DNA of 25,425 nt from a virus. Below the pieces are notes generated by a model that saw only the letters and a list, made by a program, of their open reading frames with translations, ran no database searches and had not been told where the DNA came from. The stretch is from positions 1 through 25,425 of the IMG/VR virus record IMGVR_UViG_3300020032_000004, one strand, 5' to 3'. The first letter of the stretch is position 1. Each line of letters starts with the position of its first letter. A program made the position numbers and the translations under genes. Shown here piece by piece: positions 6,942-25,177 of the stretch.

Positions 6942-8045
6942 ATGGAGTTTGGTTTAGAGATTTTGGGCAAATCTGACATGAGGTTAATTGGTGGATGGGC
7001 AAGTGTTGAAATTGTTGATTTTGAGAAAGATTATGTTCCAGTAAATGAACTTGCAAATGCAATGGTTGCTTATATGAAAAATAAAGGTGGTCAAATATTT
7101 TATGAGCATCAAAATAAATCTGTTGGTAGAGTAATTTATTGGGATATTAGGAAACATCCAACAACTGAAAAAATGGGTATATATATAATTGCATGTGTTG
7201 ATAAAGGATATGAATTTGATGATGCTGTTTGGAATAATGTTAAAGAAGGAGAATTGAAAGGTTTTAGTATTTCTGGATTTGCAAAATCTGAGGAACAGAT
7301 TATTAAATCAGAGGATGGTAAGGAAGAAAGAGTTAGAGTTTTGAAGAATATTGAAATGATGGAAATTAGTTTGGTACATAAACCAGCAAATCAATATGCT
7401 TTAATTGATGAATATAATATGTTTGCTAAGGGAGTAAGAACAAATGATATTCCAGATATGATTAAAGACCTTATTGCTGAAGTAAGTGAGAAAGTTGATG
7501 CTGTAACTTTACAAAAAATTGTTGATATAATTGCAACATATAATAAAAATAATAATGGTGTTGGAACACAAGATGTTGAAGTTGAAGAAGTTATAATGCC
7601 AGTATCAAAATCTGTTAAAGATACGGATGATTTAAAGAGAATATTAGTTGGTGTATTAGATGAAGCGAAAAAAGTAAAGGGCTTTGTTGAACATCATACT
7701 GAATCTGGTGAATATAAAGGTATGGCGGATGATATTGTTAAAACAATTCAAGCATTAATTGATGAAGTTAGTGAAGGAATTATTACTGTAAATAGTGAGA
7801 AAGATAAATCTGAATGTATGGAGGAATTTGAAACATCTGATGAGGAAGAAAGTGAGACATTTAATGATGAAGAAAATGAAAGTGTTAATAAAGAAGAAGG
7901 AACTATTACAAGTGAAACAGAAGGGTATGTTAATAGAGTATCTAGCGAACTGAATGAAAGGAAGAGAAAAAAGAGATCATGTATAGTTAAACATTATGTT
8001 AGGATAGGTGGATTGATGTCAAAAGTTGAAAAAATGCTAAAATAA
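6942..8045 (+). CDS. Prohead protease, XkdF-like
   Basis: The N-terminal 150 residues resemble viral capsid maturation proteases of the HK97/XkdF group: an opening GWASVEIVD strand, FYEHQ with the likely catalytic His56, a VGRV strand, GFSISG with the likely catalytic Ser (109 or 111), and EISLVHKPANQ. This enzyme would cleave scaffold and capsid proteins inside the procapsid. The C-terminal half (about 200-367) is acidic and helical, with a Glu/Asp/Ser stretch near 290-330 and a basic end, and may act as an extra scaffold-like or binding region. ATG 6942 follows AGGTGAT at 6931-6937. It stands before scaffold and major capsid genes, as expected. The GTG at 6933 overlaps the binding site and was not chosen. 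Confidence 0.8.
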   Translation: MEFGLEILGKSDMRLIGGWASVEIVDFEKDYVPVNELANAMVAYMKNKGGQIFYEHQNKSVGRVIYWDIRKHPTTEKMGIYIIACVDKGYEFDDAVWNNVKEGELKGFSISGFAKSEEQIIKSEDGKEERVRVLKNIEMMEISLVHKPANQYALIDEYNMFAKGVRTNDIPDMIKDLIAEVSEKVDAVTLQKIVDIIATYNKNNNGVGTQDVEVEEVIMPVSKSVKDTDDLKRILVGVLDEAKKVKGFVEHHTESGEYKGMADDIVKTIQALIDEVSEGIITVNSEKDKSECMEEFETSDEEESETFNDEENESVNKEEGTITSETEGYVNRVSSELNERKRKKRSCIVKHYVRIGGLMSKVEKMLK

Positions 8046-8106
8046 TAAATAAGGTATTTAAATATGTTTTTATGTATTTTTATATATTAATGTATGTGGT
8101 GATAAT

Positions 8107-8685
8107 ATGACTGTTAAAGACAAGTTGAAGGAAATAGTTAAGACTGATGAGGAAGAAAAAATGCCAGAAGAAGAATATGTTGGTAATGAAGAAACTGGTT
8201 TTGAAGATGAGGAAGAGCCAGTTGATAAAATTGATGCTGTTGTAGAAAGTATTGAAGGAGTTGTAGATAAATTGGCTGATGTTGTTTCAAACTTATCTGA
8301 AATTATAGATAAATTAGATACTAATGTTAGTGGTTTGAAGGAAGAAAATGAAGAGATGAAGGAAGAGTTAAAAGCATTAAAGGATACAATTGAAAAAACA
8401 TTGATTAGTGAAACCGAGGATGAATCTGAAAATGTTGAGGAAGATGAAGAGGAAGATGAAGAGGAAGAGGAAATGGAGAAACCTGATGATGTAGAGAGTG
8501 TAAATAAAGGGTATGATAAAGAGGATTTAACTAAGGGTGTTGAAGATATTGATGTTGTTGATACACCATCAGTACCAAACGCACAATTGGGTGGTGAAAT
8601 TAATAAAGGTGATGAATTATTAACAAAGATTTTAGATTTAGGTGCTGATGTTAATGTTGCTGAAATTATTAAATCTAAACAATAA
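8107..8685 (+). CDS. Capsid scaffold protein
   Basis: A 192-residue, very acidic and helix-rich protein. Residues about 38-100 contain heptad-like hydrophobic spacing, consistent with a coiled coil, followed by a run of almost pure Glu and Asp (about 108-128). No Cys is present. A short acidic coiled-coil protein between the protease and the major capsid gene is the usual form and position of a scaffold, which guides procapsid assembly and is then removed by the protease. ATG 8107 has TGGTGAT just upstream. The call rests on composition and gene order rather than on a family motif. Confidence 0.7.
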   Translation: MTVKDKLKEIVKTDEEEKMPEEEYVGNEETGFEDEEEPVDKIDAVVESIEGVVDKLADVVSNLSEIIDKLDTNVSGLKEENEEMKEELKALKDTIEKTLISETEDESENVEEDEEEDEEEEEMEKPDDVESVNKGYDKEDLTKGVEDIDVVDTPSVPNAQLGGEINKGDELLTKILDLGADVNVAEIIKSKQ

Positions 8686-10145: not shown

Positions 10146-10181
10146 ATGAAATGTTTAGAGTATGAGGGCAAATATAAGTAA
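10146..10181 (+). CDS. Possible 11-residue leader peptide overlapping the endonuclease start
   Basis: AGGTGTTG at 10133-10140 is well placed for ATG 10146, which opens an 11-codon frame (MKCLEYEGKYK) ending at TAA 10179-10181. It overlaps, in another frame, the first codons of the endonuclease at 10162, which lacks its own GGTGAT. This may be a leader peptide that feeds reinitiation, the remnant of an earlier start lost by frameshift, or chance. Confidence 0.3.
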   Translation: MKCLEYEGKYK

Positions 10182-10932
10182 TAAAAAGAAATATTATAGA
10201 AATGGTTATAGAGATATTTATATAAGTAAAGAGTGGCTAAAGGAACAAATATTGTCTGGAAGGACAAAGCAAGATATAGCAAAAGAAATTAGATGTTGTG
10301 TAAAAATTGTATCTAATTTTATTAAGAAGTATAATCTTATTGATGAAATTAAATTGGAATGTAGGTCTTTTTGTAGAATATGTGATAAGTGGTATATTGA
10401 TAAAGATTGGTTATATCAAAAATATATTATTGAAAAATTAAGTTATGACGATATTGTAAAAATTATTGGTAGTAAATCTAATAGGCCTATAAGAAATTAT
10501 CTTAAAAAGTATGGTATTAAATCAAGAGATATGAGTGAATGTGGTAGAAGTAGGGTTGAAAAAATAAAGTTAAATATTACTGATAAATTTTTATCTATTT
10601 TTGATGGTTTAGTAATTAGTGATGGTTGTATATTTAATCATAAAATGGGACACAATACAAATTTTAAATTTGAACAAACAATATCTAAAAAAGAATTAGT
10701 TTATAAAGTTAAAGATGTATTTGAAAATACGGGAATTTGGTGTAGAATTGAAGTTAGAAAGGGTGGAGAACATATAATTTGTGGAAAAGATTGTGTTGTA
10801 AAGGATAGTATATATTTGCGAACAATGAAGCATCCATTTTTCACTGAACAGCGCAAAAGATGGTATAATGATGAAGGTAAAAAGATTATTCCAAGAGATA
10901 TTAAATTTAATGAATTGATGTTAGCACATTAG
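10162..10932 (+). CDS. LAGLIDADG homing endonuclease, N-terminal part up to an in-frame TAG
   Basis: The 256 residues read here begin with two helix-turn-helix-like segments (about 34-58, with TKQDIAKEI, and 93-119, with SYDDIVKII), then a first LAGLIDADG motif, IFDGLVISDGC (146-156, D154). The frame stops at TAG 10930-10932 within a second motif reading LMLAH-TAG-MRGDGC. The same frame continues for 88 codons at 10933, so the two parts form one double-motif homing endonuclease. The codon aligns with the Trp of the common LAxWxMxDG form of the motif; one G-to-A change from TGG would make it. Either the gene is dead or TAG is read through. It sits as a free-standing insertion between capsid genes with its own promoter. 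ATG 10162 is the first usable in-frame start. Confidence 0.75.
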   Translation: MRANISNKKKYYRNGYRDIYISKEWLKEQILSGRTKQDIAKEIRCCVKIVSNFIKKYNLIDEIKLECRSFCRICDKWYIDKDWLYQKYIIEKLSYDDIVKIIGSKSNRPIRNYLKKYGIKSRDMSECGRSRVEKIKLNITDKFLSIFDGLVISDGCIFNHKMGHNTNFKFEQTISKKELVYKVKDVFENTGIWCRIEVRKGGEHIICGKDCVVKDSIYLRTMKHPFFTEQRKRWYNDEGKKIIPRDIKFNELMLAH

Positions 10933-11199
10933 ATGAGGGGTGATGGATGTTTATCTAAAGTATATAATAGATATAGTATAACTTTATGTACAAATTCTTT
11001 TAATTATAATGATATTGAATATTTGGTTGATATGTTTAATAATAAATATAATATTAAATTTAGAATTAATGGGTATAAGGATGAATATGTTATGGTGTTG
11101 AATAACCAATATGATATTTATGGGTTTTGCAAAATGATTGAGCCATATATTGTTGATTGTTTTAAATATAAAGTTAGATGTTTATATGATGATGAATAG
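10933..11199 (+). CDS. LAGLIDADG homing endonuclease, C-terminal part after the in-frame TAG
   Basis: These 88 residues continue the upstream frame without shift, beginning MRGDGC, the acidic half of the second LAGLIDADG motif, and then a typical second-half fold with a SITLCTNSFNYNDIEYL segment. No in-frame start has a ribosome binding site; the GGGGTGAT at 10937-10944 serves only out-of-frame ATGs. Separate translation is therefore unlikely. The stop is also TAG (11197-11199); seven codons further on the frame meets TAA at 11218-11220, so if TAG is sense the full protein would be about 352 residues. Confidence 0.65.
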   Translation: MRGDGCLSKVYNRYSITLCTNSFNYNDIEYLVDMFNNKYNIKFRINGYKDEYVMVLNNQYDIYGFCKMIEPYIVDCFKYKVRCLYDDE

Positions 11200-13085: not shown

Positions 13086-13787
13086 ATGTTTATTATTGAT
13101 AAAAGTGAAATTATACCATTAGAAAATGGATTAAGTAGGTTAAAAGGTAAAAGGTATGATGATAGAAAAAAATTAATTGATGAATTAAAAAGTATATCTG
13201 ATAGTATTGATGATATTGGTGTTGATTATCTTATTTATGATGATGAGGTAATGTATTGTATTGAAAGGAAAACTGTTGGTGATTTAATTAATAGTATTAC
13301 AAGTGGTAGATTATGGATACAATTACAAAGATTAAAGGAGATGGAAAATGATTTTAATGGAAAATTTGTACCAATTTTGATAATTGAAGGTAGTGAGTTT
13401 GTTATGAAGAAGATAATGAAAGGCAAATATGGAAGAGATTGGTTACTTGGTGTTATTATTGGTGTGATAAATTTAGGTGTTTATGTAATAAAAACTAATT
13501 CATTTGGTGAAACAATTAAAATATTAAATAAATATAAGAATAATGTAGATGGTAATAAGGTAAATAAAGTTGTATTTAAGAGGGCAAAAATTTTAAATAG
13601 TGATGATAATGAAGTATATGCAATTTTATGTGGGATTAATGGTATTGGTGCTGTAAAAGCAAAAAAATTGCTTGATAAATTTGGAACAGTCAGGAATATA
13701 TTTAATGCTGATAAAGATGAATTAATTGATATTTTGGGTAAAAAGGTTGGAGAACATTTTTATGATGTTATTAATAAGAAAATGTAA
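13086..13787 (+). CDS. XPF/Mus81-type structure-specific endonuclease with HhH domain
   Basis: The 233-residue protein has the ERCC4 nuclease signature: E60-R61-K62-x3-D66 (CIERKTVGDLI), preceded by an acidic strand (YLIYDDE) and followed by the RL..QL..LK helix. The C-terminal 50 residues carry a helix-hairpin-helix (GINGIGAVKAKKLLDKFG) that binds DNA. Such enzymes cut branched DNA at forks and flaps, and archaea have them widely. There is no helicase domain, so it is the short form. Likely roles are viral replication fork or recombination-intermediate processing. GAGGTGAA precedes ATG 13086. A promoter for the next gene begins three bases after the stop. Confidence 0.85.
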   Translation: MFIIDKSEIIPLENGLSRLKGKRYDDRKKLIDELKSISDSIDDIGVDYLIYDDEVMYCIERKTVGDLINSITSGRLWIQLQRLKEMENDFNGKFVPILIIEGSEFVMKKIMKGKYGRDWLLGVIIGVINLGVYVIKTNSFGETIKILNKYKNNVDGNKVNKVVFKRAKILNSDDNEVYAILCGINGIGAVKAKKLLDKFGTVRNIFNADKDELIDILGKKVGEHFYDVINKKM

Positions 13788-16904: not shown

Positions 16905-17441
16905 ATGCTTGTTGCTGTGGAATGTCCAGATTTTTTAATGTCTGATGGTGTTGGTGTTGTTATATATTTTAATATGTGTAATTTAAAGTGTAAATATTGT
17001 GATTATAGAAATATGATAAAAAGTAAGGATTTGAAATTTGTTAAATTTGATGAATTGTTTAAAGTTATAGAAAAATATTTAAATTATGTTGATAATATTA
17101 TTATTACAGGTGGTGAGCCATTATTGTTTAAGAATGAGGTTGTGAAGATTATAGATTTTACAAAAAAGAGTGGAAAAGGTATTTGGTTATATACAAATTT
17201 ATTTGATGATATTGATGATATTCTAAATGATATTGATAAAGTTGTTGTTGATGTAAAAGGTACAAATGTGATTGAAATTATGTGTAATTGTGAATGTGAT
17301 AGTAATATGGCGTTAAATATTCTTGAAAATTATGTTAAATATTGTAATAATGATAAGTTTATATTTAGAGTATCTGATTGTGTTGATGATAATAATATCA
17401 AATTTAAGAATATTGAAAAATATGAGGTAAAAGGTTTATAA
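16905..17441 (+). CDS. nrdG: Anaerobic ribonucleotide reductase activase
   Basis: A 178-residue radical SAM protein: C25-x3-C29-x2-C32 (MCNLKCKYC) ligates the 4Fe-4S cluster, and ITGGEP (67-72) binds SAM. NrdG uses the SAM radical to form the glycyl radical on NrdD. The size, and the nrdD gene 80 bases downstream, identify it. It might otherwise be another short radical SAM activase, but the pairing is convincing. AAGGTGAT precedes ATG 16905. Confidence 0.85.
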   Translation: MLVAVECPDFLMSDGVGVVIYFNMCNLKCKYCDYRNMIKSKDLKFVKFDELFKVIEKYLNYVDNIIITGGEPLLFKNEVVKIIDFTKKSGKGIWLYTNLFDDIDDILNDIDKVVVDVKGTNVIEIMCNCECDSNMALNILENYVKYCNNDKFIFRVSDCVDDNNIKFKNIEKYEVKGL

Positions 17442-17520
17442 TATTGAGTTAGTTTTATTATATTTTTATTAAGTTGAAAAGTATAATATAAAAAATACAA
17501 CTAAACAGGGGGTAGTTTAT

Positions 17521-19347
17521 ATGGAGAAAAAGGAAATGGTCGAAATTGTTGAGGAATTAATTAATAAGAATGTCAAAGAAAATGCCAATGTTTTATTCAG
17601 TAATAATTTTGTTGAATTACAAGCACAAGCAATTTTTCAAAAGGAAATTGCAAGAAAAGATATATCTGATGAATTAATTAAAGTGTATGAAAATGGAGAT
17701 ATTCACATACATGATTTGAATTTTTGGTTAAGACCAAATTGCTTACAACATCCAATATATAAGATATTCAAAAATGGTTTATATGCACTTGGTTGTATTT
17801 CAAAACCAGCAAAGCATTTGGATACTGCATTAAGTCATGTTTTAAATGCGTTAAGTTTAGGACAGGCACATATGGCTGGTGGTCAATCAATACCTATGTT
17901 TAATGTTTGGATGGCGCCTTTTGTTAGAGGAGTGAGTGATGAAGAATTAAGGCAATGTATTCAACAATTTATTTTCCAATTAAATCAAATTAGTCCATCA
18001 AGGGGACTTCAAACAATTTTTGCAAGTATAGTGTTGTGTGAAGAAATACCAGAATTTATGAAAAATAAGGAAGTTGGATATAAGGAAGGTGTATTTGGTG
18101 ATTATGAAGAAGAGTTTTATAGGTTTACAGAAGTATTTATAGATGTTTTAAATGAAGGTGATGGATCGGGGCAACCATTTATGTTTCCAAATACAATTTT
18201 ATATATGACTAATGGTGATAGATTTAGTAATGAATTGAAAAAGAAAATAATTAAGAATAAGATGAATAATAGTAATGTGTATTTTTTGAATGGATTTAAA
18301 TATGGAAAAGTATTAGCAACAAGTATGGGTTGTAGGACTTATTTAGATGATACATTAACTGGTGATATATTTAAAGATGTTATGGGAACAGGTAATATGA
18401 GTTATATTACATTAAATATTCCAAGAATTATATTGAAGGCAATTAGGGAATATGGATTTGATATAAGTGAAGATAAATTAAAAGAATTTGTTGAATCTGA
18501 AACTGATAGATTAATTGATATTGGTGTTAGAATTTTATTAGCAAGAAGAAATAGGTTATGGAAATGTTGGGAAGAAGGTTGGTATCCATTCTTTAAAAAT
18601 GAGATATATAAGGATGAAAATGGTTGGTATTATAATCTTGGTTTTACGACAATGACATTTGGTATAATAGGTATAAGTGATTGTGAAAAAATATCTGGTG
18701 GTAAATTTGATGGTTTATGGTTTGTGAAAATGATTAAAGAAAAGGTAGATGAGTTGAATAAATTTACATATAGTGAATTGGCAGATAAATATGGTGTAGA
18801 ATATAATAATTATGGAAATGAAGAAATATCAAGATGGTCGTTAATTGGTTCGCCAGCAGAAGGTTGTACTTATAAATTTAAAAAATTAGATAATATGGAA
18901 TTTGGTGATATTCTTAAAAAAGTTGGTATTTATGATAGAAAATATTATGTTAATAGTATCTTTGTTGATGATTCTGAAAATTTAAATGCTATGGAAAAAA
19001 TATTATATGAGGAAAAATACCATAAATATTTAAATGGTGGTATAATTTGCCACATTTGGAATGCAGTTGATGGTGATAGTGTTGATGAATTAAAAATATG
19101 GGATTGGTTTATGAATATTATGAAGAATACAGAGTTAAGATATGTTACAATATCAAATGTAATTTGTTATTGTAGTGATTGTTCTCATAAATGGGTTGGA
19201 AGTAAATTTGATAATAAATGTGTAAAGTGTAATGGTGATAACATAAGGAAGTATGCTAAAATCACTGGTTATTTGTCAGAAATAGATAGATGGAATTCTG
19301 GTAAAATGGATGAATTTTATAATAGAAATAATTTTAAGATAAATTAA
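17521..19347 (+). CDS. nrdD: Class III anaerobic ribonucleoside-triphosphate reductase
   Basis: The 608-residue enzyme reduces ribonucleoside triphosphates to deoxyribonucleotides without oxygen. It has an active-site Cys in SMGCRTYLD (C271), a C-terminal zinc site C551-x2-C554-x12-C567-x2-C570, and the glycyl-radical segment KITGYLSEIDRWNSGK with Gly583. The N-terminal ATP-cone present in many cellular enzymes is absent: the protein starts close to the catalytic domain, as in shorter viral forms. The ribosome binding site (AGGGGGT at 17507-17513) differs from the GGTGAT used nearby. Together with NrdG, 80 bases upstream, it would make dNTPs for viral replication, and points to an anaerobic host. 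Confidence 0.9.
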   Translation: MEKKEMVEIVEELINKNVKENANVLFSNNFVELQAQAIFQKEIARKDISDELIKVYENGDIHIHDLNFWLRPNCLQHPIYKIFKNGLYALGCISKPAKHLDTALSHVLNALSLGQAHMAGGQSIPMFNVWMAPFVRGVSDEELRQCIQQFIFQLNQISPSRGLQTIFASIVLCEEIPEFMKNKEVGYKEGVFGDYEEEFYRFTEVFIDVLNEGDGSGQPFMFPNTILYMTNGDRFSNELKKKIIKNKMNNSNVYFLNGFKYGKVLATSMGCRTYLDDTLTGDIFKDVMGTGNMSYITLNIPRIILKAIREYGFDISEDKLKEFVESETDRLIDIGVRILLARRNRLWKCWEEGWYPFFKNEIYKDENGWYYNLGFTTMTFGIIGISDCEKISGGKFDGLWFVKMIKEKVDELNKFTYSELADKYGVEYNNYGNEEISRWSLIGSPAEGCTYKFKKLDNMEFGDILKKVGIYDRKYYVNSIFVDDSENLNAMEKILYEEKYHKYLNGGIICHIWNAVDGDSVDELKIWDWFMNIMKNTELRYVTISNVICYCSDCSHKWVGSKFDNKCVKCNGDNIRKYAKITGYLSEIDRWNSGKMDEFYNRNNFKIN

Positions 19348-21077: not shown

Positions 21078-21743
21078 ATGGCATTATTTATGAGGAAAAG
21101 GGATGTATGTACAAGTTATGAAGAGTTAGTAAAAAAGATATTACTTGACGGTGATGATGTTATAACAGAAATGGGCGATAAAACAAAAGAATTAAGAAAT
21201 ATTTTAATTGAAATAACAAATCCAAGTGATAAATCAATATCTAAAAAATATCCATTTGGTGAAAATTTTATTAAGGCATATAGAAATCAATTGTTGTATG
21301 GAACAGAAAATGAATTTAGTTATGATTATCATTCTAGGTTATTTGAATGGGATTGTTGTAGGGAATATGATTTAGTTAATCAAATTGATTATATTATTGA
21401 GAAATTAAAATTTAATAATAATAGTAGAAGAGCGTTAGCAAATACTTGGATACCATATTTTGATTGTGATGTTGAAAGAGATGATAAATCAGTACCTTGC
21501 CTTCAAAATATTCAGTGTTTGGTTAGAGATAATAAATTAGAAATGAGTGTGGTATTTAGGAGTAATGATATATTGCTTGCTTATCATGCTAATACATTGG
21601 GATTAATTGCTCTTGGTGAAATGATAGCAGAAAAGATTGGTGTTGAATTTGGTAAATACATTCATTATATAGTATCTGCACATATTTATACTGATCGTGA
21701 TAGGGATTATTTAGATAAATATTTTTCAGAAATTGGAATTTAA
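21078..21743 (+). CDS. thyA: Thymidylate synthase, short archaeal type
   Basis: The 221-residue protein is close in length to the archaeal short thymidylate synthases. It has the catalytic Cys in VPCLQNIQC (C141), a following RSND (R161 to D164), the conserved Asn in HANTLGL (N172) and HIY (H202 to Y204). It would convert dUMP to dTMP, with dUMP supplied through the dCTP deaminase-type gene at 13857. Asn172 suits dUMP; dCMP-using hydroxymethylases carry Asp there. A dUMP hydroxymethylase would keep the Asn, so a base-modifying relative is not excluded. GGTGAT precedes ATG 21078, 30 bases after the RadA-like gene. Confidence 0.8.
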   Translation: MALFMRKRDVCTSYEELVKKILLDGDDVITEMGDKTKELRNILIEITNPSDKSISKKYPFGENFIKAYRNQLLYGTENEFSYDYHSRLFEWDCCREYDLVNQIDYIIEKLKFNNNSRRALANTWIPYFDCDVERDDKSVPCLQNIQCLVRDNKLEMSVVFRSNDILLAYHANTLGLIALGEMIAEKIGVEFGKYIHYIVSAHIYTDRDRDYLDKYFSEIGI

Positions 21744-21830: not shown

Positions 21831-22340
21831 ATGGATTGTATAAATGAATATATTCCAGCAAAAATAAATTGTGATTATGTGTTAGAAGTAAAAGAAAAGT
21901 TTAATTTTGATTATGCACATTTTTTATCAAATTATGATGGCAAATGTTATAATATTCATGGGCATACAGCAAAAGTATCTGTTGAAATTCATGGTAGTCC
22001 AGGTAAAGATGGTTTTGTTATAGATTTTGGTATAATAAAGAGTGAAATTAAAAATATTATAGATGAATATGATCATAAAATATTAGTATCTGCTAATTGT
22101 GTAGAATCATATGATGATGAGTTTGTTAATATAAAATATGGTAAGAATTATATGAAATTAGAGCGTGATATGGTTGTTATTACAGGTAGTGAACCAACCG
22201 TTGAATATATTTCGAGAAGAATATTATATTTACTTATAAATGTGTTAAAAAAGAAAGAATATAAAAATATTGAAGGTATAAGTGTAATAATTAGCGAAGG
22301 AGAGCATAATTATTGCAAAGTTTATGATACATTATGGTAA
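21831..22340 (+). CDS. queD: 6-carboxytetrahydropterin synthase
   Basis: The 169-residue enzyme has the QueD/PTPS motifs: FDYAHFL with a zinc His, CYNIHGH with the catalytic Cys and two more zinc His residues, GFVIDFGIIK, YDHKIL and PTVEYI, and a C-terminal ISEGE with the substrate-binding Glu. It turns 7,8-dihydroneopterin triphosphate into 6-carboxy-5,6,7,8-tetrahydropterin, the first dedicated step to preQ0. ATG 21831 follows GGTGAG at 21822-21827; an in-frame TTG at 21762 lies upstream of the promoter and is rejected. queE follows 12 bases after its stop, and the two encode consecutive steps. Confidence 0.9.
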   Translation: MDCINEYIPAKINCDYVLEVKEKFNFDYAHFLSNYDGKCYNIHGHTAKVSVEIHGSPGKDGFVIDFGIIKSEIKNIIDEYDHKILVSANCVESYDDEFVNIKYGKNYMKLERDMVVITGSEPTVEYISRRILYLLINVLKKKEYKNIEGISVIISEGEHNYCKVYDTLW

Positions 22341-22352
22341 AAAGGTGAAATT

Positions 22353-23075
22353 ATGGTAAAAGTATCAGAAGTTTTTGTTTCAAGGCAAGGAGAAGGTTTT
22401 TTAATGGGTCAAAGATGTTTATTTATTAGGGTATCTGAATGTAATTTAATTGACCATTGTTCTGGGTTTTGTGATACTGGTAAATTAGTTGGTGTTGATG
22501 TTGAAATTGATGATTTATGTAAAAGTGTAAGAGAAATTATTGATGAAAGTGATATAAGAAATGTTGTTATTACTGGTGGTGAGCCAACAATATATCTTGA
22601 TGAATTTCTTGAATTAATCAGTAAGATTGATAGGGATGTTTTATGGCAATTTGAGACAAATGGTGTACTACCAATTGATTTAGAAAAAGTAATGAAAAGT
22701 ATTAAAATTGATAAAAATAGAATAATGTTTGTAGTATCCCCAAAAAATGGTACATTTATTAATGAAACATATTATGGACTATATAAAACATCATTAATGT
22801 CTGGTAATCCGTGTGTGGTTTTTAAATTAGTTGTCATGCCAGTATTAGATAAGATTGATAATTCAAATTCGTGTCCATTTTTTAGTGCAACAGATATATC
22901 TGATATAATTAATTTTTTACTTGATAATGAAGTAAATAGAAATGATATTTGGTTAATGCCATTTGCAAAAAGTGTTGATGAGTTAGATAATACTGCAAAA
23001 ATTGTATATGAGATTGCAAAATTATTTGATGTAAATTATAGTGATAGATTACATATTAGATTCAATTTTAAATAA
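22353..23075 (+). CDS. queE: 7-carboxy-7-deazaguanine synthase with atypical radical-SAM motif
   Basis: The 240-residue enzyme turns 6-carboxytetrahydropterin into 7-carboxy-7-deazaguanine. It has the QueE pattern: VSRQGEGFLMGQRCLFIRVSE at the start, VITGGEPT, FETNG, and the SPKNGTF segment. The 4Fe-4S cluster motif is unusual: the cysteines of ECNLIDHCSGFCDTG are spaced C-x5-C-x3-C instead of C-x3-C-x2-C. The DNA reads tgt, five codons, tgt, three codons, tgt. It follows queD by 12 bases, with AAGGTGA at its start. The identity is strong despite the odd spacing. Confidence 0.85.
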   Translation: MVKVSEVFVSRQGEGFLMGQRCLFIRVSECNLIDHCSGFCDTGKLVGVDVEIDDLCKSVREIIDESDIRNVVITGGEPTIYLDEFLELISKIDRDVLWQFETNGVLPIDLEKVMKSIKIDKNRIMFVVSPKNGTFINETYYGLYKTSLMSGNPCVVFKLVVMPVLDKIDNSNSCPFFSATDISDIINFLLDNEVNRNDIWLMPFAKSVDELDNTAKIVYEIAKLFDVNYSDRLHIRFNFK

Positions 23076-23101
23076 TATTTCTATTTTTGGGGTGATAAAA
23101 G

Positions 23102-24097
23102 ATGTTATATTTTTTAAAATTAGAACCAATACTTAATAGATATAATGTTGATTGGAATGTGTGGTTTCCAGAAATGTTTATGAAAAAAGGTATAGAATAT
23201 TGTTTAGTAGAAGGTGATAATAATATTTTTAAATGTGATGGTAGAATGTATTTTGATTTTAAAAGTGTAATGTCTTGGAAGTATGAACAATTAAGTGATT
23301 TAATGAAAGTGTTGGGTTCATCATCTTGTGTTGATGATGTGGTATTTATACCAGATTTATATTTTCCAGGTATAGAAAGTTTGTATTTTTTAAAGAAGTT
23401 AAATAATATGAATATAAAAATTGTATCTGTGATACATGCTGGTTCATATATACCTTATGATTATACTTATCTTAATGGTATGGAGCGAATATGTAAGGAT
23501 TTAGAAGAAGTATGGTTAAATATGTGTGATTTAATATTTGTTGCGACTAATTATCATAAAGAAAAAATATTAGAGTGTAGAAATGTTGATGAGGATAAGA
23601 TTAAAGTTATTGGATTACCTTGTGATGTTGAAGGTTTAAGTAGAATGTATAGAGTTAATGAATATGATAGAGTTAGAGATTTTGTTTATGCTGGTAGATT
23701 GGGAATTGATAAAGGGTATGATATGATAAAATTTATTGAATCACATTGTAATATTGATATATATAAGACATTTGAGCATAAATTAGATAAATCTGATTAT
23801 TATATGGAGTTGGCAAATTCTAAAAGTATTATACAACCAAGTAGGTTAGAAACATTTTCATATGCTGTTGTTGAAGCAATGAGTTTAGATTTAATTCCTA
23901 TTGTTCCAGATGGTATAGCATTTGATGATTATGTTCCAAGGAAGTTTAGATATGATCCATATGATATTTTTGATTTTATATATAAAGTTGAAAAAGTTAA
24001 TGATTATAAAGGCGAAATAAATATGAAAAAATATGTTAAGAAATATCAATATCAAGGTATAATTGGTGAGATGATTAAAGAAATTGATAAATTATAA
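23102..24097 (+). CDS. GT4-type (GT-B fold) glycosyltransferase
   Basis: The 331-residue protein has the GT4 hallmarks in its C-terminal half: a nucleotide-sugar binding strand AGRLGIDKGYD (197-207) and PSRLETFSYAVVEAM (246-260) with the E250-x7-E258 pair. The N-terminal half has the acceptor domain, with HAGS near 112. It transfers a sugar from an activated nucleotide; the acceptor is unknown. GGGGTGAT at 23089-23096 is a strong binding site. It lies between queE and the dpdA-like gene, so DNA or nucleotide glycosylation is a reasonable guess, and a surface or virion glycan the alternative. Confidence 0.8.
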   Translation: MLYFLKLEPILNRYNVDWNVWFPEMFMKKGIEYCLVEGDNNIFKCDGRMYFDFKSVMSWKYEQLSDLMKVLGSSSCVDDVVFIPDLYFPGIESLYFLKKLNNMNIKIVSVIHAGSYIPYDYTYLNGMERICKDLEEVWLNMCDLIFVATNYHKEKILECRNVDEDKIKVIGLPCDVEGLSRMYRVNEYDRVRDFVYAGRLGIDKGYDMIKFIESHCNIDIYKTFEHKLDKSDYYMELANSKSIIQPSRLETFSYAVVEAMSLDLIPIVPDGIAFDDYVPRKFRYDPYDIFDFIYKVEKVNDYKGEINMKKYVKKYQYQGIIGEMIKEIDKL

Positions 24098-24109
24098 GTG
24101 GTGTATAAT

Positions 24110-25177
24110 ATGTGTAGGAATAAAAATTTTATAATGTATTTTAGTGGATTTTCAAATGCTCGCCTTGAAAAGATGTTAAATTTTGTGAGGAATGGAGTTA
24201 GAATTGATGGTATATGTTTCAATTATTTGGATGTTTATATAATGACTGAAAAAACAAGGAATAATTTTATGAAAACAATTGAAGAGTTAAAAGAGTATGG
24301 TGTTGGATTTTTTTGTGATTCTGGGTGTTTTCCAATATTGTATGTATATGATAGGTTATCTGGAAGTGATGTTAGAACGCCTAGAAGTTTAAATAAACAT
24401 GCATTAGATATAGTACAAAATAATAAATATGATATACTAATAGAATCTTATATTAGTTTTTTGAAGGAATATGGTGATTTATTTGATTTTAAAGTTGAAT
24501 TTGATTTACAGAAAATAGTTGGTGAAGATAAAGTATGGAAATGGCGTGATATGTTTAATAAGAATGATATTCCTATAAATCTTGTAATTCATGCTGAACA
24601 TAGTAAAGATGATATTGAAAAAATGGTTGAATTTGTTAATTATAATTGTGGTGGTATGTCACTTGCAGGTCCACGAAGTACGCATCCATCAGTATTTTCA
24701 TCAAAAGAGCGTCAAGCATCAATTGTTAAGAAAATAAATAAAGATATATGGATACATTTTCTTGGTTTTGGTGAAATGAAATATATTGGTGAATTTATTG
24801 GTAAAGGTTTAATACAAAGTGCTGATAATACAAGTTGGGTTAATAGTACAATGTTTGGACATCAATATATATTTGATTGTGAAAGTGGTATTATGAGAAA
24901 ATTATCGGTTGGTAGAATATTTAAAGATAAAGGATGGGTTAAAAGAATGAATTTGGTTAAAAATAGGTTTTATGAAAGATATGATAAATTAGTTGAATGG
25001 GGATTTGATGTTAAAACAATGGAGGAATTATTTACAAAGGAGCGTATTAGTGATTCTTGGAATTGGTTTACTCTATTAGAGTATCAGGAATTTTATAATT
25101 TTATAAATACAGAAAAAGGATTTAATAAGATATGTGGAAGTGCAAAAAATACACAAACATTGGATAAATGGTTTTAA
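24110..25177 (+). CDS. dpdA: TGT-like base exchange enzyme, probable viral DpdA
   Basis: The 355-residue protein resembles tRNA-guanine transglycosylases of the DpdA group, which insert 7-deazaguanine bases into DNA. It has FFCDSGCF (67-74), like the DSGGF of TGT with Asp70 in the base-binding site, a KVEFDLQ strand (128-134), a GGMSLAGPRS segment and SADNTSW (237-243) with a likely nucleophile Asp239. The zinc-ligand Cys cluster of tRNA-specific TGT is not seen. It follows GT4 and queD-queE, whose product it would use, directly or after QueC. ATG 24110 has GTGGTG at 24098-24103. The family call rests on motifs and context; an archaeosine-type tRNA enzyme is the alternative. Confidence 0.65.
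   Translation: MCRNKNFIMYFSGFSNARLEKMLNFVRNGVRIDGICFNYLDVYIMTEKTRNNFMKTIEELKEYGVGFFCDSGCFPILYVYDRLSGSDVRTPRSLNKHALDIVQNNKYDILIESYISFLKEYGDLFDFKVEFDLQKIVGEDKVWKWRDMFNKNDIPINLVIHAEHSKDDIEKMVEFVNYNCGGMSLAGPRSTHPSVFSSKERQASIVKKINKDIWIHFLGFGEMKYIGEFIGKGLIQSADNTSWVNSTMFGHQYIFDCESGIMRKLSVGRIFKDKGWVKRMNLVKNRFYERYDKLVEWGFDVKTMEELFTKERISDSWNWFTLLEYQEFYNFINTEKGFNKICGSAKNTQTLDKWF

Follow-up and report, generated by a model that had tools for sequence, protein, structure and literature searches.

The virus record IMGVR_UViG_3300020032_000004 comprises exactly 25425 bases, and this entire stretch (hereafter the window) is a fragment of a viral genome, so that the absence of a gene from it proves nothing for the complete genome. 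It contains a run of four genes on the plus strand, separated by gaps of 12-26 bases, which respectively encode a QueD, a QueE, a glycosyltransferase of the GT4 family and a DpdA-like transglycosylase (Table 1). A first-pass annotation had read this run as a 7-deazaguanine DNA modification operon of an archaeal virus, with the GT4 gene lying among queD, queE and a gene resembling dpdA or tRNA-guanine transglycosylase (TGT), and profile matches recovered all four genes. The starts it had assigned to queD and the dpdA-like gene, the ATG codons at 21831 and 24110, are correct, as judged by a ribosome-binding-like GGTG(A) sequence upstream of each (GGTGA 5' of the queD ATG), which is lacking upstream of the longer open reading frames (ORFs) from 21762 and 24098. 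The predicted QueD retains the zinc-binding histidines H30, H43 and H45 and the catalytic-type Cys39, and its score against TIGR03367 lies under the NCBIfam trusted cut-off. The cysteine spacing of the predicted QueE (C-x5-C-x3-C) is unusual, yet a motif survey of related cassettes indicates that this spacing varies across the family; its radical-SAM scores in Pfam are weak. None of the four proteins matched a PADLOC model.

Table 1. Features of the window: the four-gene run, followed by the genes of nucleotide metabolism that lie 5' of it
Feature	Position	Strand	Length	Evidence
queD, 6-carboxytetrahydropterin synthase	21831..22340	+	169 aa	PF01242 1.2e-25; TIGR03367 2.7e-22
queE	22353..23075	+		phrog_2076 4.7e-26; cysteine cluster CNLIDHCSGFC
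GT4 glycosyltransferase, DpdA-linked subfamily	23102..24097	+	331 aa	PF13439 E=1e-6
dpdA-like, predicted DNA guanine transglycosylase	24110..25177	+	355 aa	phrog_887 'queuine tRNA-ribosyltransferase' 3.5e-8
Methanogen-type thymidylate synthase	21078..21743	+		TIGR03283 219.8 bits (cut-off 174.6)
nrdG-like activase and nrdD, anaerobic ribonucleotide reductase	16905..19347	+		PF13597 6e-111; TIGR02487 over cut-off

Used as query against the full set of phage records, the window GT4 recovered only 19 records from five lineages, and in every one of them the GT4 gene lies in a deazaguanine cluster. In the phages ACP17, PAC2/PA5oct-type, X1 and BUCT-ZZ01 it adjoins FolE, QueD or QueE genes and DpdA, while in PhiXhv-12 it adjoins a fusion of Gat and QueC. 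The latter gene (L008, 5606-7129) bears the name glutamine-fructose-6-phosphate aminotransferase, and is really a glutamine-amidotransferase/QueC fusion (QueC E=2.7e-51). Using the ACP17 GT4 as query added the phage Phosso, which combines the GT4 with FolE and QueE. We then searched IMG/VR with an alignment of four phage GT4s, blind to neighbouring genes, and identified the neighbours with our own profiles. This uncovered 77 loci, 75 of which are flanked by DpdA, by FolE, QueD or QueE, or by a small phrog_17812-like protein (hereafter the companion). After dereplication at least one of these genes was present within 6 kb of the GT4 in 64 of 66 contigs. DpdA occurs in 49 of the 66 dereplicated loci, invariably sharing the strand of the GT4 (49/49) and lying within 100 bases of it in 12, and the companion, which shows weak kinship to QueD (hhalign probability 27%, with three histidines aligned), in 58. 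Restricting the dereplicated loci to those with 4.5 kb or more of each flank leaves 41, of which 40 contain deazaguanine genes or the companion (DpdA in 34; FolE, QueD or QueE in 38).

This single GT4 subfamily pairs with three distinct DpdA subfamilies, namely the DpdA2/nt-1 type, the PAC2 type and the type seen in the window, which argues for a functional association over shared descent of a single cassette. The window-type DpdA is also carried by the loci L085, L088, L089 and L090, and the gene order QueD-QueE-FolE-companion-GT4-DpdA found in L078, L079, L085, L088 and L089, where DpdA is likewise of the window type, differs from that of the window only by the presence of FolE and the companion. 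Direct queries of IMG/VR with the DpdA, capsid, GT4 and NrdD proteins of the window recovered no close relatives, by a pattern search that reaches near kin only. The sequence-level linkage of GT4 and DpdA is thus recurrent, and the notion of the GT4 as a bystander gene was not borne out; it is quite probable that the enzyme acts in the same pathway as the deazaguanine genes.

The GT4 itself appears intact, with an N-terminal LEPI..RY motif, an HAGSY motif, R199-x4-K204 and E250-x7-E258, and an alignment of 17 sequences shows E8, R13, Y14, D85, R199, K204, E250 and E258 to be invariant. Its structure model has a mean predicted local distance difference test (pLDDT) score of 82.8, and Foldseek places MshA and BshA, enzymes of mycothiol and bacillithiol synthesis, among the closest solved folds; their structural alignments to the model have Z-scores of 23-25. 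Both of these enzymes move N-acetylglucosamine (GlcNAc) from UDP-GlcNAc, and both partner with PIG-L-type deacetylases. By analogy, the sugar handled by the window GT4 is probably of the GlcNAc type, with UDP-GlcNAc as donor. The partnership is paralleled in PhiXhv-12, where the gene next to the GT4 bears a PIG-L-type deacetylase annotation, whereas the window shows no deacetylase gene, and its GT4 shares about 12% identity with MshA and BshA and would use another acceptor. A candidate N-terminal deacetylase in L085 and L088-L090 displays an APHLDDE motif only; it was unconfirmed by Pfam, NCBIfam, PDB and hhalign, and we do not use it as support. In the GT4 tree the window protein joins L085, L088, L089 and L090 and relatives of X1, with support from the SH-like approximate likelihood ratio test (SH-aLRT) of 88 and then 93, a placement that is tentative because the window branch is long.

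The dpdA-like protein has no match in Pfam or NCBIfam, and a sequence search of the PDB returned nothing. Comparison of profiles was more informative: an alignment of the window protein and its IMG/VR relatives (A5) matched an independent DpdA1 alignment including the Escherichia phage CAjan enzyme (A9) in hhalign at 99.8%, with an E-value of 6.6e-28. Deletion of dpdA in CAjan has shown that this gene is essential for dPreQ0 in the phage DNA (PMC6884629). The predicted catalytic aspartates D70 (in DSG) and D239 (in DNTSW) are invariant in two alignments (A5 and A8). H216 aligns with a histidine conserved across DpdA1 proteins, and is probably the position reported as missing in DpdA2, which is without a histidine that is otherwise conserved (PMC6884629). 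The CxCxxC zinc motif of tRNA TGT is absent, and the length of the protein leaves no space for an extra domain. The predicted fold, albeit from a low-confidence model, is a TIM barrel of the TGT type: in VIA-align its best match was archaeosine TGT (1iq8, Z 11.7), followed by DpdA, the enzyme that inserts preQ0 into DNA (7ui4, Z 11.6). A tree of 36 proteins, with long branches and with one archaeal tRNA TGT as outgroup, groups the window protein with those of BS162P1, Roos, L077, L078 and L085 in a clade of six (SH-aLRT 96), which nests within a DpdA1-side clade of 15 (SH-aLRT 95), apart from the archaeal tRNA TGT. The two phage enzymes of this clade come from phages of Bacteroides and Faecalibacterium; in Roos a YhhQ-like gene, which by inspection we take for a preQ0 transporter, lies 3' of dpdA. 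Profile, fold and tree concur in that the window protein, as far as sequence comparison goes, sides with DNA-modifying DpdA1-like enzymes and not with tRNA TGT, the grouping that would have spoken against the first-pass annotation.

Neither QueC nor FolE was found within the 25.4-kb window; for QueC this agrees with the first-pass annotation. QueC was likewise absent from the vicinity of the GT4 in all 66 dereplicated loci and in all 41 of those with full flanks. Six GT4-bearing phages were examined over their whole genomes: ACP17, PAC2, BUCT-ZZ01 and Phosso gave no QueC match, X1 gave a sub-threshold one, and PhiXhv-12 a true one, in the form of its Gat-QueC fusion. Phages with DpdA of the preQ0/G+ type do carry QueC near DpdA. 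On this survey of gene content the absent QueC is a trait of GT4-linked cassettes rather than a gap of the window fragment. Because such cassettes generally lack QueC, it is simplest to suppose that GT4-linked systems use 7-carboxy-7-deazaguanine (CDG) rather than preQ0, and we give CDG an even chance of being the acceptor. A phage without queC, and hence a possible CDG user, has been remarked on previously (PMC6884629). The initial suggestion had been that either host QueC supplies preQ0 or the DNA base is the carboxy form itself; the latter is favored by the QueC-free cassettes, and the former stays as the alternative.

Based on these observations we propose that the run belongs to a pathway for the hypermodification of viral DNA, in which the virus would itself make CDG through QueD and QueE. 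The DpdA-like enzyme would then swap guanine in viral DNA for CDG or a derivative by a TGT-type base exchange, with D239 as the predicted nucleophile and D70 as the general acid/base. The GT4 would add a sugar derived from a nucleoside diphosphate sugar to the deazaguanine, either once this base is in DNA or earlier, while it is still free. The product would be a bulky, sugar-carrying 7-deazaguanine that blocks host nucleases; such protection from restriction is suggested by analogy with related phages (PMC6884629). That the viral DNA contains a 7-deazaguanine of some kind is highly probable given the DpdA1-side profile match and tree, and to this extent the original prediction is well supported. 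It had given the GT4 no part in the modification, and this we revise: because the GT4 accompanies DpdA consistently in viruses that are not related to each other, the product is probably a glycosylated base and not dPreQ0, dCDG or archaeosine in plain form. We put the probability that the run modifies viral DNA with a glycosylated 7-deazaguanine at roughly 0.6, and it is reasonably likely that the sugar sits on the DNA base. There is a chemical precedent in huimycin, for which GlcNAc has been proposed on a preQ0-derived base (PMC7439116).

Several features of related cassettes can be accommodated in such a pathway. The N-terminus of FolE appears phosphoribosyltransferase-like by inspection in L079 and L090, and separate phosphoribosyltransferase genes are present in PAC2, BUCT-ZZ01 and L097; their presence would be explained if the guanine that DpdA releases were recycled to GTP. 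A second QueE-like protein that lacks the radical-SAM cysteines is encoded next to the GT4 in L085 (5378-5980), L088 (5468-5995) and L090 (5441-5995), and L088 and L090 additionally encode an ATP pyrophosphatase resembling PAPS reductase; these likely represent extra steps of the same pathway. Two dpdA genes are themselves unusual. In L088 (7017-8699) the DpdA frame of 561 aa continues into prohead protease-like sequence, which possibly reflects either a fusion of DNA-modification and capsid-maturation proteins or a missed stop. In L083 (7004-9015) dpdA is split by an antisense ORF (7605-8444) that resembles a transposase gene, and both halves of dpdA are recognisable.

Some of the evidence weighs against a glycosylated base. 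The GT-B fold leaves the donor unfixed, and the top Z-score of the GT4 model in fact belongs to sucrose-phosphate synthase. The branch of the window GT4 is long, its best identity is 28% and the SH-aLRT values for its place in the subfamily reach 88-93; the window fragment has neither FolE nor the companion so frequent elsewhere. The DpdA model is of low confidence (pLDDT 55.7), with other TIM barrels close behind the top matches at Z 10-11. Furthermore, the background rate was judged from single-query phage matches, by which a DpdA or QueE query hits 70-152 of 50,697 phage records (130 for QueE), and host QueC could supply preQ0. If a plain 7-deazaguanine were inserted, as dCDG or, through host QueC, as dPreQ0 or dG+, the GT4 could be unrelated and serve, for example, in glycosylation of the virion or host surface. 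The known deazaguanine viruses, including the archaeal virus HVTV-1 with its dPreQ1, do bear unglycosylated bases (PMC6884629), and phage GT4 enzymes frequently serve surface polysaccharides (PMC7824862). We consider this unlikely, given that 64 of 66 dereplicated loci found through the GT4 alone carry deazaguanine genes or the companion, that DpdA always shares the strand of the GT4, that one GT4 subfamily accompanies three DpdA subfamilies, and that the window GT4 does not lie within a surface-glycan cluster.

It is more doubtful still that the GT4 acts on a small molecule of the pathway, such as a pterin or a free deazaguanine nucleotide, the sugar being lost at insertion or used otherwise. 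The GT4 model does match tetrahydrobiopterin glucosyltransferase (9v0l, Z 21.7), and a locus from a Candidatus Iainarchaeum metagenome-assembled genome (L097, 5159-11753) encodes a phosphoribosyltransferase, the companion, a radical SAM protein, the GT4, a Ham1-like NTPase, QueD, QueE and FolE, with no DpdA, so that the substrate of the GT4 may be a free base or a nucleotide. The L097 cluster is possibly a cellular or mobile version working at the nucleotide level; among 93 genomes around this one (archaeal DPANN relatives) the GT4 was found in that genome alone. The presence of DpdA in 34 of the 41 loci with full flanks and the usual presence of QueE point past a pterin to a nucleic-acid base. 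That the genes instead boost archaeosine or another modification of host tRNA, with the TGT-like enzyme working on tRNA, is very improbable: preQ0 is used in archaeal tRNA, and 48 phages with preQ0-pathway genes but without DpdA have been proposed to boost tRNA queuosine (PMC6884629), but the window enzyme falls on the DpdA1 side and not with archaeal TGT, has neither the CxCxxC motif nor room for further domains, and is encoded amid genes of DNA and nucleotide metabolism.

Deazaguanine systems as such are known from phages, archaeal viruses and PA5oct (PMC6884629, PMC8651126, PMC7824862). The DpdA1-type systems of CAjan and 9g (PMC6884629) share with the window QueD, QueE and a DpdA1-side transglycosylase with the same catalytic residues, whereas the window fragment is without QueC and FolE, has the extra GT4, comes from a virus of archaea and shows about 20-25% identity to them. 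Druskaviridae such as HVTV-1 are, like the window virus, archaeal tailed viruses with a related portal protein, and HVTV-1 possesses FolE, QueE, QueD and QueC, with dPreQ1-modified DNA demonstrated (PMC6884629). Unlike the window it has QueC and a QueF-type gene with no annotated glycosyltransferase beside them, and its candidate transglycosylase, HVTV1_69, forms a separate long branch in the DpdA tree. Among the closest known systems are also the deazaguanine clusters of ACP17, PAC2/PA5oct, X1, BUCT-ZZ01 and Phosso, in which the same GT4 subfamily lies by FolE, QueD or QueE, with DpdA in four of the five and QueC mostly absent; they differ in a DpdA of the DpdA2 or PAC2 type and in their phrog_17812-like companion. 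The deazaguanine system of PA5oct is already on record, with the GT4 unmentioned (PMC7824862). Huimycin biosynthesis similarly combines a FolE/QueD/QueE/QueC cluster with a glycosyltransferase, HuiG, proposed to place GlcNAc on the preQ0-derived base (PMC7439116), but its product is a secreted small molecule and not DNA; the likeness drawn here is one of gene content.

Among 50,697 phage records, the window portal protein has relatives in haloarchaeal tailed viruses and one Methanomassiliicoccales virus, and in no others. Because of these relatives and of the thymidylate synthase of methanogen type, which scores over the cut-off, the attribution to an archaeal tailed virus holds at the level of sequence, with the host specified to archaea only. 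The thymidylate synthase gene lies directly 5' of queD and is absent from the cassette in other viruses; together with the nrdG-like/nrdD pair it provides a nucleotide-metabolism context for the run. We also considered and set aside a GT4 acting on hydroxymethyl-pyrimidines, the neighbour being an ordinary thymidylate synthase (TIGR03283 equivalog) with no hydroxymethylase seen in the fragment. Elsewhere in the window, two neighbouring ORFs at 10162-11199 cover positions 2-96 and then 110-161 of a LAGLIDADG endonuclease profile, so that a homing endonuclease gene looks to be split there, and 13086-13787 encodes a protein with ERCC4 nuclease and helix-hairpin-helix domains (XPF/Mus81-like), an archaeal-type repair nuclease in a virus. 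The window as a whole shows extreme strand asymmetry: the plus strand (1-25425) contains 6.0% C and 19.5% G, third codon positions 1.6% C versus 12.5% G, and the overall GC skew is 0.53, compared to a median of 0.10 for the 77 GT4 loci. Strand-specific cytosine deamination or a tie to DNA modification could be the cause.

Sugar-bearing DNA is known for hydroxymethylated pyrimidines and for base J. The cassette belongs to the DpdA systems, and probably works like the sugar modifications of T4 and of base J but on a purine analogue. We found no tie between a glycosyltransferase and deazaguanine DNA, and no glycosylated 7-deazaguanine DNA, in the accessible literature (subscription papers and preprints being mostly outside the search), and a sugar-decorated 7-deazaguanine DNA base seems not to have been described before. 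The chances appear evenly balanced that these cassettes define a widespread, undescribed class of DNA hypermodification, in which viruses make CDG with no recourse to QueC, various DpdA subfamilies place it in DNA, and a dedicated GT4 attaches a sugar; its carriers would be jumbo phages of bacteria and at least one tailed virus of archaea. If so, this class would account for the many phages that carry FolE, QueD and QueE yet no QueC. The proposal points to one gene family, the GT4, and to the cultured phages ACP17, X1, PA5oct-type and Phosso as test cases. If true, a glycosylated purine analogue made via the queuosine/archaeosine route would add a new class to the chemistry of viral DNA.

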